From positions 186,001-250,000 of the forward strand of contig NZ_JAKCFB010000003.1 in NCBI RefSeq assembly GCF_024198235.1: a stretch of 64,000 nt of DNA. Reading direction: 5' to 3'. Below the pieces are notes generated by a model. The model searched no databases. It worked only from the letters and a program-made list of their open reading frames with translations, and had not been told where the DNA came from. The position numbers were made by a program, and so were the translations under genes. Below, piece by piece: positions 56,264 to 63,843 of the stretch; positions within the stretch are counted from its first letter, which is position 1; every line of letters begins with the position of its first letter. The DNA comes from Myxococcus dinghuensis (lineage in GTDB: Bacteria > Myxococcota > Myxococcia > Myxococcales > Myxococcaceae).

Positions 56264-56638
56264 TCAGCGGGCGTCCGTGTCGGGAATCGGTTTGGGCGGA
56301 GGGTTGGAGAACGAGGGGACGTCGACGAAAACACGCGAGGCCGCAGCCGGGTCCACCAGCACGTTGAGCCACGCCCCAGGCTGGACACGGGATGCGGCAA
56401 CCTGAGGGATGCGCGCATCGGTGGTCGCCTCGTAGGGGGCCCCCTCCTTTGGGTACACGCGCATGGTCAGCGTCGGACACAGGTCACCGACATCCGGAAA
56501 CCAGGTGCATTTGCTGCCCGTGAGGTGTGTCACCGTGGCCACTGCCGGGACGGCGTTGGCCGGTGCCGAATTGCCACATGCGGTCAGCAGGAGAACCGCC
56601 AACGGCAACCCATGTCTTCCAAGTTCAGTCAGGCCCAC
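56264..56638 (-). CDS. Small lipoprotein of unknown function
   Basis: A 124-residue protein with a signal peptide ending in lipobox AVLLLTAC (Cys21). The mature part has GSKCTWFPDVGDLCPTLTMRVYP and a VQPGAWLNVLVDP strand, compatible with a small beta domain holding one disulfide. The start is a GTG at 56638 without a clear ribosome site, so the exact N-terminus is uncertain, but the signal peptide fits. It converges with the aldo/keto reductase gene. Confidence 0.65.
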   Translation of the reverse strand: MGLTELGRHGLPLAVLLLTACGNSAPANAVPAVATVTHLTGSKCTWFPDVGDLCPTLTMRVYPKEGAPYEATTDARIPQVAASRVQPGAWLNVLVDPAAASRVFVDVPSFSNPPPKPIPDTDAR

Positions 56639-56899: not shown

Positions 56900-57919
56900 T
56901 CACTGCTCGATGTGGATGTGCGGCCCGCCCCAGACCCGCTGGCCGGCGGGGCGTGTCCGCTCGTCGCGCACGGTGTAGCCGCGGGCCCGGGCGTCGGCCA
57001 TGAAGGCGTCGAGGCGCTCCTGGGACACGCCTCGCGAGCGCACGTCGATGGCCCGCCCCTGGTAGTGCCTCGAGCGGGTGTTGTGCCGGCCACCCGTCGT
57101 CGACGTGACGGTGAGCCCGTGCTGCTCCGCGAGCCGGGCCATGCCCTCGTACGGCCGACCGGTCGTCGACGGGGTGCTCACCGACTGCGTCTTGTTCTTC
57201 GTGAAGCTCGAGACGCCGTTGAGGGCATCGAAGGTCTTCTGCCCCGCGACACCGTCGGCCTTGAGCCCCGCCGCGCGCTGGTAGTCACGCAGCGCCCTCT
57301 CCGTTGCGGGCCCGAACTGGCCGTCCGTCTTGCCAGGGTTGAAGCCGGAGGAGCGCAGCCGGTCCTGCAACGACCGGACGGAGGCCTCGTTCTTCGTGCC
57401 CTTGCGCATCGTGCCGCTCGTGTAGCCCATCACGCTCGCGCGGTCCGCCGCGCGCGCCGCGGCCATCGAGTTCTTCGACGAGAAGCTGCTCTCGGCGGAG
57501 TACCCCTTCACGCTCGCGCGGTCCGCCGCGCGGGCGGCGGCCATCGAGCCAGGGCCCGTCTTCGACGAAGCGGACTTCGAGGCCTTGCTGTCGGCGGAAT
57601 AGCCACTGACGCTCGCGCGGTCCGCCGCACGGGCGGCGGCCATCGAGCCAGGGCCCGTCTTCGACGAGGCGGACTTCGAGGCCCTGCTGTCCGCGGAGTA
57701 CCCGCTGACACTCGCGCGATCAGCGGCACGAGCCGCCGCCATGCTCCCGGGGCCCGTCTTGCTGGCCGACGAAGCCGTGCTTCCCTTGCTGGCCGAAGCG
57801 CCCTTGCTGGCCGAAGCGCCCGTGCTGCCTCTGCTCGCCGACGAGCCCGAGCTGCCTCTGCTGGCCGAAGAACCCGCGCTGCCTCTGCTGCCCGACGAAC
57901 TCGCACCACCGACGCCCAT
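56900..57919 (-). CDS. Repeat-rich peptidoglycan-binding protein with M15/DD-peptidase-like C-terminus
   Basis: A 339-residue protein. Residues 1 to about 60 are Gly/Ser/Ala/Arg/Lys tandem short repeats (SxGSSASRG). Residues about 60-185 contain four copies of 'SMAAARAADRASVxGY(S/T)' joined by Lys/Ser-rich spacers. A PG_binding_1 domain follows (SVRSLQDRLRSSGFNPGKTDG ... GPATERALRDYQRAAGL, about 185-245). The C-terminus (about 265-339) has SRHYQGRAIDVR and GGPHIHIEQ, whose His, Asp and His fit the zinc ligands of M15-type DD-peptidases. No Sec signal is visible, so secretion by another route or release by lysis is likely. The ATG at 57919 follows AGGAGCACG. Confidence 0.78.
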   Translation of the reverse strand: MGVGGASSSGSRGSAGSSASRGSSGSSASRGSTGASASKGASASKGSTASSASKTGPGSMAAARAADRASVSGYSADSRASKSASSKTGPGSMAAARAADRASVSGYSADSKASKSASSKTGPGSMAAARAADRASVKGYSAESSFSSKNSMAAARAADRASVMGYTSGTMRKGTKNEASVRSLQDRLRSSGFNPGKTDGQFGPATERALRDYQRAAGLKADGVAGQKTFDALNGVSSFTKNKTQSVSTPSTTGRPYEGMARLAEQHGLTVTSTTGGRHNTRSRHYQGRAIDVRSRGVSQERLDAFMADARARGYTVRDERTRPAGQRVWGGPHIHIEQ

Positions 57920-58187
57920 GACGTGCTCCTGGGATGAGGGGGAAGGCCGGGGCTGGATCACACCACCCCGTTCATAAATCGTATTCTCGGATTAATACGC
58001 GAAATGTTTCCGTCCGATAATTCCCGCCCAACCCGCGGATATCCCCGAGACACGCCTCCCTTCCCGGGGAGTGTCGCCAACCCCGTGAAATCCCCAGGGA
58101 CTTCGCGGGTCGGGCACGAAAGCCTCGCCCCCGGAGGCGAGGCGCCAGAAAGCAGTCGTCACACGTCTGTGACTCGCGCACACCTGT

Positions 58188-61348: not shown

Positions 61349-63412
61349 CTACAGCGTCTTCAGGTATTCAATCAGCGCGACGCGCTCCGGGTCGGTGAGC
61401 ACGGAGTTGAACTCGTGCCCGGCGTTGTCCTGACCGAAGGCGTTCGTGTTGTAGATCTTCCGGTCCTCGAGCTGCGAGCGCGTGCGCGTCGGCGGGAAGA
61501 GGATGTTCCAGGAGACGATGATGTTGCTGAAGAGCACGTTCAACATCTCCTGCGCGAGCGGGGTGCGGAACTCGTCACCCGGCTGGCAGTTGATGTACGG
61601 CGACACCGCCGGGTTCAAGGGCCCCCGCCACTGGCAGGCAATGGAGTCGTACTTCCAGCCGAGCTTCGCGGGGTCGTAGGCCCGCTGGAGGTTCGTGTCG
61701 AAGCCCATGATGGTCAGCGGCTGGTCCCACCGCGGCGGCGTGGAGACGCGGCGCCAGATGGGCTTGCGGTCGGAGGGCTTGAGCACCTCCCAGACGTTGG
61801 GGACCGAGCCGTTGTGGAGGTACGGCGCGGTGGCCCAGACGCCGTACAGCGGCGGCGCGAGGTAGCCGAGCTCCCGGTTCCCTCGGATGTGGGGCTGGTT
61901 CTGCGGGCCGCAGTCCTGGTCCGTCCCCGCCGTCGAGGGATAGCCGAAGAAGTTCTTGGCGCCCGCCGCCTGCACCGCCTGGTTGTTGGTGTTCACCCGC
62001 ACCGGGTCCGTACCGATGATGTTCAGCGGCACGATGTAGCTCGCCATGCCCGCCAGCGCCGGCGTCGCGAGGTACGTGGGGTCGTTGACGTAGCGGGACG
62101 CATAGGCGCCGTGGCAACTGGCGCAGGATCCGTTGCCCTGGGGCCGGGCGATGGGGTTGTTGCGTCCCGGGCCCCACATGTCGAGCGTGTGGAACAGCAC
62201 CGCGCCCTGCTCCGCCAGCGCCTGGTTGATGGGCAGCGGATAGGCCGGCGACTTGAGCGACTCGACCCAGGTATTGAGCGGGGGCCCGTTGACGCGCATC
62301 CAGTTCTGCCCCGCTTCGCTGACCGGCCCGCCCACGCCGCCGAAGAGGCCGAAGAACGGCGTGTAGAACACCATGTCCACGCGGGGCGCATCCATGGGGA
62401 ACACCCCGTCGACGAACTTCACCGGCCGGTGCCCCATGTTCCACCACGCCGGGGTATCCATGCCCGCCGTCGAACCGGAGTTGATGACGCCCAGCACCTC
62501 GGAGACCGACAGCAGCCGCTCGTCCGGGAACAGGAACGCGAGGTTGATGTCGCTGGCGTTGTTGGTGCCACGCGTGCGGTTGAGGTTCAGGAACGTGGCC
62601 AGCGACGCGGGATAGCCCAGGGGTAGCAGGTCACTGAGGAACAGGTCCAGGTCCGCCAGGCTGCTGCCGCCGCCCATCATCACCCCGAGCCCCGGTCCAT
62701 CCGCGGGTGTGCCCACCGCGCCGCTGTGGCAGGCGTGACAGGTGACGCCGATGCGACCGCTCCAGCTCCCGTCCGGGTTGCGCAGCTGCGTGAGCATCTG
62801 CGGCAACTGGCCACTGCCACCATTGGACCAGTTGGGGTTCTGCCCGGGCAGCGGATACGGGTTGCGCTCCGTGCTCAGCACCGACCCGTAGCGCTGGGCC
62901 ACCAGGGAGTCGAAGTTGTCGGGGCGGAAGAGGAAGCCCCACATGCGCCACAGCTCGTTGTACTGCAGCGACGTGAACGTGGAGATGCCCAACGCGGACT
63001 CGACCGACATGGGCTCCGTGCCAGCGAAGAGCGCGCCCGTTCCCGGGTGGCCGTTCGTCAGCAGCCCCTCGCCGTGGTAGAAGCGCTGCCGCAACTCGCC
63101 ACACGTCTTCGCCGGGCCTTGCTCCTGTACCGCCGCGGGGTCGACGTGACAGTTCTTCCAGAAGGCATTGAAGTGCACCGCCCGGCCATTGCTGATGCCG
63201 GGTTGCACCAGCGTCCGCGGGTCCGCCGGAAGGATGGCGCTGTCGGGTTTGCCATAACAGAAATCCCACTGCACCGAACCGCCGCGGCTGCTGCCGAGCA
63301 GATCCGTCGCGGCGGCGGAGACAGCGGGGAGCGTCAGGATTCCCGCGAGCAACGCTCGCATGAACGGTACGGCGATCCTGCTCGATGCAGATGACGACCA
63401 CTCTTCGCGCAT
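61349..63412 (-). CDS. Dihaem c-type cytochrome, RoxA/RoxB-like (rubber oxygenase family)
   Basis: A 687-residue exported protein with a signal peptide (MRALLAGILTLPAVSAAA; cleavage near residue 35). Two haem c motifs are present: CHACH (Cys225, Cys228, His229) and CASCH (Cys430, Cys433, His434). The C-terminal half has the MauG/cytochrome-peroxidase-like segment GYLAPPLYGVWATAPYLHNGSVPNVWEVL. Length, order and spacing fit RoxA/RoxB, extracellular dioxygenases that cleave poly-cis-1,4-isoprene and for which I recall myxobacterial homologues. Other large MauG-type oxidases remain possible. The start at 63412 gives a proper signal peptide. The gene stands alone, 124 bases downstream of the divergent TetR region. 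Confidence 0.75.
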   Translation of the reverse strand: MREEWSSSASSRIAVPFMRALLAGILTLPAVSAAATDLLGSSRGGSVQWDFCYGKPDSAILPADPRTLVQPGISNGRAVHFNAFWKNCHVDPAAVQEQGPAKTCGELRQRFYHGEGLLTNGHPGTGALFAGTEPMSVESALGISTFTSLQYNELWRMWGFLFRPDNFDSLVAQRYGSVLSTERNPYPLPGQNPNWSNGGSGQLPQMLTQLRNPDGSWSGRIGVTCHACHSGAVGTPADGPGLGVMMGGGSSLADLDLFLSDLLPLGYPASLATFLNLNRTRGTNNASDINLAFLFPDERLLSVSEVLGVINSGSTAGMDTPAWWNMGHRPVKFVDGVFPMDAPRVDMVFYTPFFGLFGGVGGPVSEAGQNWMRVNGPPLNTWVESLKSPAYPLPINQALAEQGAVLFHTLDMWGPGRNNPIARPQGNGSCASCHGAYASRYVNDPTYLATPALAGMASYIVPLNIIGTDPVRVNTNNQAVQAAGAKNFFGYPSTAGTDQDCGPQNQPHIRGNRELGYLAPPLYGVWATAPYLHNGSVPNVWEVLKPSDRKPIWRRVSTPPRWDQPLTIMGFDTNLQRAYDPAKLGWKYDSIACQWRGPLNPAVSPYINCQPGDEFRTPLAQEMLNVLFSNIIVSWNILFPPTRTRSQLEDRKIYNTNAFGQDNAGHEFNSVLTDPERVALIEYLKTL

Positions 63413-63843
63413 GGGGCCCTCCTCGTGCACTGCGTGATTCCACTGCCTCACCGAGGTGCGAGGCAGGACGCAGGGCGAGCTCTCCCCGAGCGCAGGCTCA
63501 CACCGGCCAATGCCAGTGCAACCCTGCCCAGGGACATGGCGGACGGCACGCGACGAGGCCCGTCGACGAGAGCCTCGCTGAGACCTTCCGCCCTTCCGCG
63601 CTCACCGTGTAGCCACCGCGCACTTCACTTGACTGGAGCACGGGTCCCGCGAGCTCCCCGGCAAACAGCCGGGATGGATGACTGGCATCGAGGGGACTCG
63701 TCACTCTCTGACAGGGAAATGATGGACGGCTATTGGCACGGCGTCAATAGGACCTCCATGTTTGTCCTGGCTTTATCAATTGCCGGGCTTTGCCGCAGTG
63801 CGACATCGAGGCAGGGATCGCACCGCGAAGAGCAGCACATCAC
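63413..63843. other. 431-bp intergenic region upstream of the cytochrome gene
   Basis: It should hold the promoter of the cytochrome gene and the end of the preceding gene's transcript. A small hairpin (TGCCTC ... GAGGCA) lies near 63444-63466. No reading frame is convincing, and no known regulatory motif is recognised. Confidence 0.4.

Follow-up and report, generated by a model that had tools for sequence, protein, structure and literature searches.

A signal-less, repeat-bearing gene for a predicted M15-type peptidase of a myxobacterium has its repeat unit in common with proteins from phage virion regions

The gene described here lies in a 64,000-nucleotide stretch (hereafter the window) of the 10.4-Mb genome of a myxobacterium, a predatory soil bacterium, and encodes a 339-residue protein in which a Ser-rich leader and four repeat units precede a peptidoglycan-binding domain and a zinc-peptidase-like C-terminus (Table 1). 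The predicted enzyme is of a known kind; the new part is the repeat module and its sharing with phage proteins of virion regions. Judged from sequence, phages and bacteria both use the repeat as a module joined to wall hydrolases, and it lies outside every family that was searched. The front repeat of the bacterial protein is nearly identical to that of phage structural-region proteins, and phage cell-entry machinery is therefore the probable source of the gene or of a part of it. The reading that we favour, with some reserve, is that of a modular phage-type lysin (virion-associated or endolysin-like), carried as a stand-alone, orphan accessory gene and presumed to cut the cell wall.

The reading frame (57919..56900 on the reverse strand, stop codon included) opens at an ATG with AGGAG six bases upstream, and the same frame is already open from an earlier GTG at 57961. 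The start M-x-V-G-G-A is common to the window protein and its orthologues, and the leader that it opens (Ser/Gly/Ala-rich; Ser/Gly/Lys in the earlier note) contains 22 Ser, 14 Gly and 10 Ala and begins M-G-V-G-G-A as in the orthologues. No hydrophobic stretch interrupts the N-terminus, which reads MGVGGASSSG... and carries neither an apparent Sec signal nor the lipoprotein signal peptide expected of SitA or other outer-membrane-exchange toxins; in a hydropathy scan of the first ~115 residues the highest 15-residue mean was 0.11, in agreement with the earlier note, which had seen no signal peptide. The full-length AF2 model is poor (mean pLDDT 47), so we make no claim on the shape of the repeats.

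Table 1. Features of the repeat-bearing gene, and virion genes beside the phage proteins that carry the same unit.
Feature	Position in window	Strand	Basis or remark
Whole gene: repeat-bearing, signal-less PG_binding_1 + M15-type peptidase, 339 aa	56900..57919	(-)	ORF, Pfam
Leader, residues 1-58	57746..57919	(-)	composition; AF2 low-confidence (disorder-like)
Repeat unit 1, residues 59-75	57695..57745	(-)	sequence
Repeat unit 2, residues 92-108	57596..57646	(-)	sequence
Repeat unit 3, residues 125-141	57497..57547	(-)	sequence
Repeat unit 4, residues 151-167	57419..57469	(-)	sequence
PG_binding_1, residues 178-233	57221..57388	(-)	Pfam 68.4 bits; VIA-align Z 10-13.7
Likely M15/LAS-type zinc peptidase domain, ~residues 249-339	56903..57175	(-)	profile, alignment, AF2, Foldseek, VIA-align
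Upstream element conserved in orthologues, ECF-type promoter-like	57983..58012	(-)	~93 to 64 bases before ATG
L103, L107 neighbours			terminase + portal flanking
L101 neighbour			terminase
L099 neighbour			portal
L100 neighbour			P22-type stabilisation/head-closure relative
L098 neighbours			protein similar to P22-type stabilisation/head-closure relative + tail-fibre gene

The four SMAAARAADRASVxGY units, which the earlier note had already placed with a Ser-rich leader ahead of a peptidoglycan-binding domain, share SMAAARAADRASV without change and continue as SGY, SGY, KGY and MGY in units 1 to 4. Within residues 1-166 the longest k-mer present at least four times is 13 residues long, against a maximum of 7 in 2000 shuffles. 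At the DNA level, 13 bases over the 17 codons distinguish units 1 and 2, every change being synonymous, and the other five pairs show 3-12 synonymous and 2-4 non-synonymous differences (3-13 and 0-4 over all six pairs), the non-synonymous ones falling in the variable x-G-Y-S/T end. Since the differences are mostly synonymous, the comparison argues that the units are old and maintained by selection and do not go back to a single fresh duplication. No Pfam, NCBIfam or PHROGs family accounts for the repeat region as such, although some PHROG and NCBIfam matches reach into it, from the binding domain or by way of low complexity, and a literature search for the exact unit MAAARAADRASV, in that one spelling, found nothing. 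A Ser-rich stretch before PG_binding_1 also occurs in HxsA, the His-Xaa-Ser repeat protein (TIGR03979), but the window protein has no His-Xaa-Ser repeats and no recognised radical-SAM neighbour, and an HxsA-type modified repeat was rejected because the score, 23.5 bits, is far below the cut-off of 121.65. The unit may serve as a tether, as a tag for loading, or as a site to which a common partner binds.

The connection with phages comes from a scan of 2.9 million viral contigs (metagenomic phages) with the unit patterns, in which 20 contigs matched, 12 of them in chance frames and eight with true units in Ser/Gly-rich stretches. These eight represent six distinct proteins (L098, the same as L102; L107, the same as L104; L099; L100; L101; and L103), every one of them encoded beside virion genes, and a single consensus is common to their 12 units and to the 47 units of 12 bacterial proteins. 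Scored at pattern-free positions only, with a profile from nine of the 12 bacterial proteins (the near-duplicates L071 and L072, and L010, were excluded), 10 of 11 phage units reached 21.8-38.9 and one 2.6, against -9.9 to -29.9 for the 12 chance matches; one further unit of L098, which the pattern had not matched, went unscored. Window unit 1 and the unit of L099 are identical at 20 of 21 residues. L099 itself (L099:2912-8302) is 1796 residues long and has a single repeat unit; no domain was recognised in it.

A recognisable wall-hydrolase domain is present in two of the six phage proteins: L107 matches Peptidase_M15_4 at 25.4 bits (cut-off 25), and L098 matches an SLT transglycosylase at 21.0 bits, just below the cut-off of 21.3, as well as phrog_4067 (E 1.1e-21). 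The remaining four have no Pfam hydrolase match. L103, ~150 residues of which can be aligned with proteins annotated as tape-measure proteins in Rhizobium phages, contains HSTGRALDV, motif-like residues without Pfam or profile support; L100 likewise has motif-like residues that no profile confirms, no hydrolase was found in L099, and the L101 sequence is truncated. Among named phages and plasmids a two-unit tblastn query returned no match even at E 10, for which low-complexity masking may be responsible, nor did the whole L100 repeat protein match any named phage; an AGR-codon scan of the viral contigs gave 0. A prophage origin visible in the myxobacterial genomes was considered and set aside, no homologue of the L100 stabilisation protein having been found in 189 Myxococcota genomes, an empty result that without a positive control is uninformative.

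On the bacterial side, the exact degenerate pattern of the unit matched 12 of 195 Myxococcota genomes, at one locus each, and a differently relaxed pattern returned the same 12 among 189; the backward-pattern control gave no match, and none of 296 Actinomycetota genomes matched. The regular expression required R7, D/E10, R11, S13, G16 and Y17 and left M3 and A4 free; across the 21-residue stretch, M3, A4, R7, D10, R11, S13, G16 and Y17 are kept in all 47 units. Within the genus of the window the repeat gene is present in 8 of 27 genomes. What follows the common front can differ: 10 of the 12 orthologues end in the M15 domain and two (L076:4205-5416 and L077:5616-6737, with four and six repeats) in a CHAP-like domain, with scores (22.5 and 23.5 bits) that stay under the cut-off of 26. 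In both of the latter the repeat gene directly adjoins a gene named by eye as an FHA/sigma-54-type activator; the idea that RASV, which resembles a basophilic kinase site, is phosphorylated was dropped, this neighbour being common to those two related genomes only.

The surroundings of the 12 copies (11-15 kb each, the gene caller having missed the repeat gene itself in L069) are not shared, except within a clade of four (L070-L073) and between the pair L076/L077. No conserved partner or immunity gene stands beside the 12 copies, and no phage gene was recognised near any of them by eye, nor by Pfam on six window neighbours; the same two approaches recognised no phage or secretion module in the window, and no holin or lysis partner was recognised when the genes of the 12 neighbourhoods were read by position and first residues, without a holin model. 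Over the binding and M15 region the window protein is 88% identical to its counterpart in G104, a genome of another genus, and 66-82% identical to those within its own genus, which suggests that the gene has moved horizontally. The two genes that flank it in the window lie far apart in the relative G017 (at 0.82 and 6.46 Mb), so no empty site can be read there. No viral relative of the whole window protein was found. Patchy presence, non-conserved neighbourhoods and a closest protein in another genus together point to accessory behaviour.

The M15 domain without regard to the front is more widespread, occurring in 22 of 189 genomes, 10 of which include a repeat-bearing copy; of 19 M15 loci that were read, 17 gave a frame, and none of these had an obvious signal peptide by eye. 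One family (L015, L017, L034 and relatives, in many Myxococcus-group genomes) is a signal-less PG_binding_1 + M15 protein starting ML[KQ]VG[ST]RGSDVTRLQ, with Asp, Arg or Thr before H-x-H; a further set (L016, L018, L019 and L035), in several genomes of the window's genus, has two tandem PG_binding_1-like stretches and a VanY-type end, again with no obvious signal peptide; and in L132, L133, L135 and L140 a leader that is short and basic, and in L132 and L133 rich in Thr and Arg, precedes the M15 domain, without a binding domain. In L140 this M15 end is preceded by MSVGGADKSGG... and a stretch rich in Ala, Lys and Glu. The repeat-less PGB+M15 proteins and the M15 proteins with short Thr/Arg leaders have the same M15 domain as the window protein, at 30-69% identity, and differ from it in having no repeat units. 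Because signal-less, repeat-less relatives of this kind are found in many myxobacteria and are common within the genus, the enzyme part alone is ordinary there. The earlier note's view of the protein as unlike housekeeping hydrolases is thus apt for the leader with its repeats and not for the enzyme behind them.

The binding domain passes its Pfam gathering cut-off (23 bits), and its best rows in a VIA-align comparison are to solved peptidoglycan-binding domains. For the C-terminal half, Peptidase_M15_3 stays below its cut-off (14.8 bits against 23.2), so that we call the domain M15-like and not a Pfam M15_3 member. Its zinc-type motif, S-x-H-x-x-G-x-A-x-D ... H-x-H, is invariant in an alignment with 23 relatives (H279, S283, H285, G288, A290, D292, H334 and H336 in full-protein numbering), with H285, D292 and H336 as predicted zinc ligands and H334 and H279 invariant too. 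The best PDB match by sequence is 1lbu (E 1.3e-9), a match for which the binding domain chiefly accounts, the M15 motif adding a second, weak stretch. PDB E-values are weak for the M15 half alone: a profile of that domain matches the N-domains of hedgehog at E 0.0006, in a 30-residue stretch around the zinc motif. With an AF2 model built from the 23 sequences (mean pLDDT 72.6), Foldseek again places 1lbu first (E 1.5e-6 over 215 columns), with an rmsd of 13.4 because the two domains are oriented differently. VIA-align relates the M15 half to the VldE C-terminal domain (Z 6.7, 3.4 A, 81 residues) and to hedgehog N-domains (Z about 5.6, 76 residues), middling values in a range, below 8, that is weak if taken alone. 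Both of these are zinc members of the same fold class, and middling Z values combined with an invariant motif make an LAS/M15 fold likely. The M15-like zinc motif that the earlier note had seen is thereby borne out, and in sequence and predicted fold the ligands appear arranged for catalysis.

The enzyme most like the window protein is the zinc DD-peptidase of Streptomyces albus G (1lbu, M15A/LAS type), in which PG_binding_1 is likewise followed by an LAS zinc domain with SRHxxGxAxD and HxH, and which is the top PDB match by both sequence and fold. Unlike it, the window protein has a four-repeat leader and lacks an apparent export signal. The residue before H-x-H (three before the last His) is Pro or Ala in the window protein and its orthologues, Pro in the former, and Asp, Arg or Thr in the paralogues; Pro or Ala where 1lbu has Asp leaves the identity of the catalytic base in doubt. 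Modular phage endolysins (PHROG 2649 and others) also combine a binding and a catalytic domain without a signal peptide, but they do not have the long repeat leader, and no holin or lysis cassette was recognised near the window gene. A third likeness is to podovirus ejection and virion-associated hydrolases (T7 gp16 type; tape-measure lysins), since unit-bearing phage proteins have terminase, portal or P22-type stabilisation genes as neighbours, and hydrolase domains occur in some of these proteins; the six phage proteins sit in virion structural modules, as the bacterial copies do not, the bacterial gene being an orphan, with no adjoining virion genes, and much shorter. Ejection proteins, according to a review (PMC8954989), are packed with the DNA and ejected into the envelope, and their peptidoglycan-hydrolase domains swap between proteins; they offer the closest known mode of action for the window protein.

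Upstream of the gene, the conserved element holds 36.8 bits of information across eight upstreams, against 22.8-25.1 in 15 mononucleotide shuffles. The motif run comprised the eight non-redundant upstreams of M15 orthologues and left out L071, L072 and both CHAP orthologues; in the CHAP pair no element is obvious by eye. We take the element to resemble an ECF-type promoter; its conservation suggests that the gene has a promoter of its own, though shared ancestry may explain part of it.

For a lysin of phage type speak the order of PG_binding_1 and M15, as in 1lbu, the invariant zinc motif, the unit common to phage proteins of virion regions, the exchange of the M15 end for a CHAP-like one in two orthologues, and the accessory behaviour of the gene; against it stand the absence of any recognised phage gene near the bacterial copies, the empty searches for the L100 stabilisation protein and in named phages, a hydrolase in just two of the six phage proteins, the weak PDB and Pfam scores of the M15 half, and the uncertain catalytic base. 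Such an enzyme would be made in the cytoplasm, out of reach of the producer's own wall, so that, having no Sec export, it would be kept harmless by its compartment, and it would meet peptidoglycan only upon cell lysis or through a carrier that crosses the membrane. There the binding domain would anchor it to the wall and the M15 domain would cut the stem peptide; its activity would probably be that of a DD-carboxypeptidase or an endopeptidase, and the repeat-bearing leader would act as a flexible tether or loading segment, as in virion-associated hydrolases. It is possible, although we do not prefer it, that the protein is simply a self-acting endolysin or autolysin, held in the cytoplasm until the producer lyses during development or phage attack and then breaking the wall of the dying cell or its neighbours, with the repeats as a flexible linker only. 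The missing signal peptide, the endolysin-like layout, the repeat-less signal-less relatives within the genus and a promoter-like element suggestive of regulated expression would all suit this, but a mere linker would need neither the constraint seen in the unit (mostly synonymous differences, and 8 of 21 positions identical in 47 units, six of these required by the regular expression) nor its reuse in phage proteins, and no holin or lysis partner was recognised beside the gene. An own-wall enzyme, regulated by an envelope-stress-type sigma factor and exported by some other route, is quite improbable. For it speaks the element of the eight M15 upstreams, with its likeness to an ECF-type promoter; but the orthologues are related, so that ancestry may account for part of the conservation, the CHAP pair outside the motif run has no obvious element, and neither the missing export signal nor the patchy occurrence fits a function of this kind.

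The repeat itself invites a further, tentative and rather doubtful proposal, namely that SMAAARAADRASVxGYS, as a tag not described before, directs wall hydrolases into phage particles or helps them out of the particle and across the envelope, and that myxobacteria took over tagged hydrolases with interchangeable M15 and CHAP ends, to be carried by a phage-type route or another one independent of Sec. How phages choose the proteins that are packed beside their DNA and ejected is poorly understood, as is how myxobacteria place wall-cutting enzymes into other cells, and a repeat common to virion-region hydrolases of different phage types and to signal-less bacterial hydrolases would be a testable candidate for such a loading or passage tag; if it is no more than a linker, the gene would encode a phage-type lysin that is ordinary but for its front. 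A related suggestion, that the repeats are a delivery tag by which an antibacterial effector is carried into prey or rivals (by a Kil/Tad-like apparatus, T6SS, outer-membrane exchange or a phage-derived particle), we regard as unlikely. The host group is predatory, the ends are swappable behind a common front and the distribution is patchy, but a gene that 19 of the 27 genomes in the genus lack cannot be a general predation effector, no lipoprotein signal fits it for outer-membrane exchange, and no conserved immunity or delivery gene stands beside any copy, the neighbours being shared only in the clade of four and the one pair. The earlier note had proposed an effector of a contact-dependent or phage-derived system and had advised a search for an adjoining immunity protein or secretion tag; the phage connection survives, by way of the repeat unit, and contact-dependent delivery is not supported by the 12 neighbourhoods, the window or the N-terminus, so that its observations are confirmed and its interpretation partly supported. 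A likeness of the phage and bacterial units that is due to convergence or low complexity and not to kinship seems very improbable, even though both sit in Ser/Gly-rich stretches and the tblastn search, with its possible masking, came back empty: the identity of window unit 1 with the unit of L099, the clean score gap between phage units and chance matches, and the empty Actinomycetota and backward-pattern searches are all difficult to reconcile with it.

Encapsulin cargo peptides are LTVGSLRR-like, and the stretch YTSGSLRKG of orthologues was considered as one; it was rejected, being the start of the peptidoglycan-binding domain and similar in repeat-less paralogues. Directly downstream of the gene, at 56264-56638 on the reverse strand of the window, is encoded a lipoprotein-like protein of 124 residues without a Pfam match, and an 80% identical copy of this DNA occurs at an unrelated place in G017. 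Elsewhere in the window, the reverse-strand gene at 61349-63451 encodes a protein of 700 residues, possibly a relative of the rubber oxygenases, in which a RoxA-like cytochrome c domain (PF21419) scores 74 bits.
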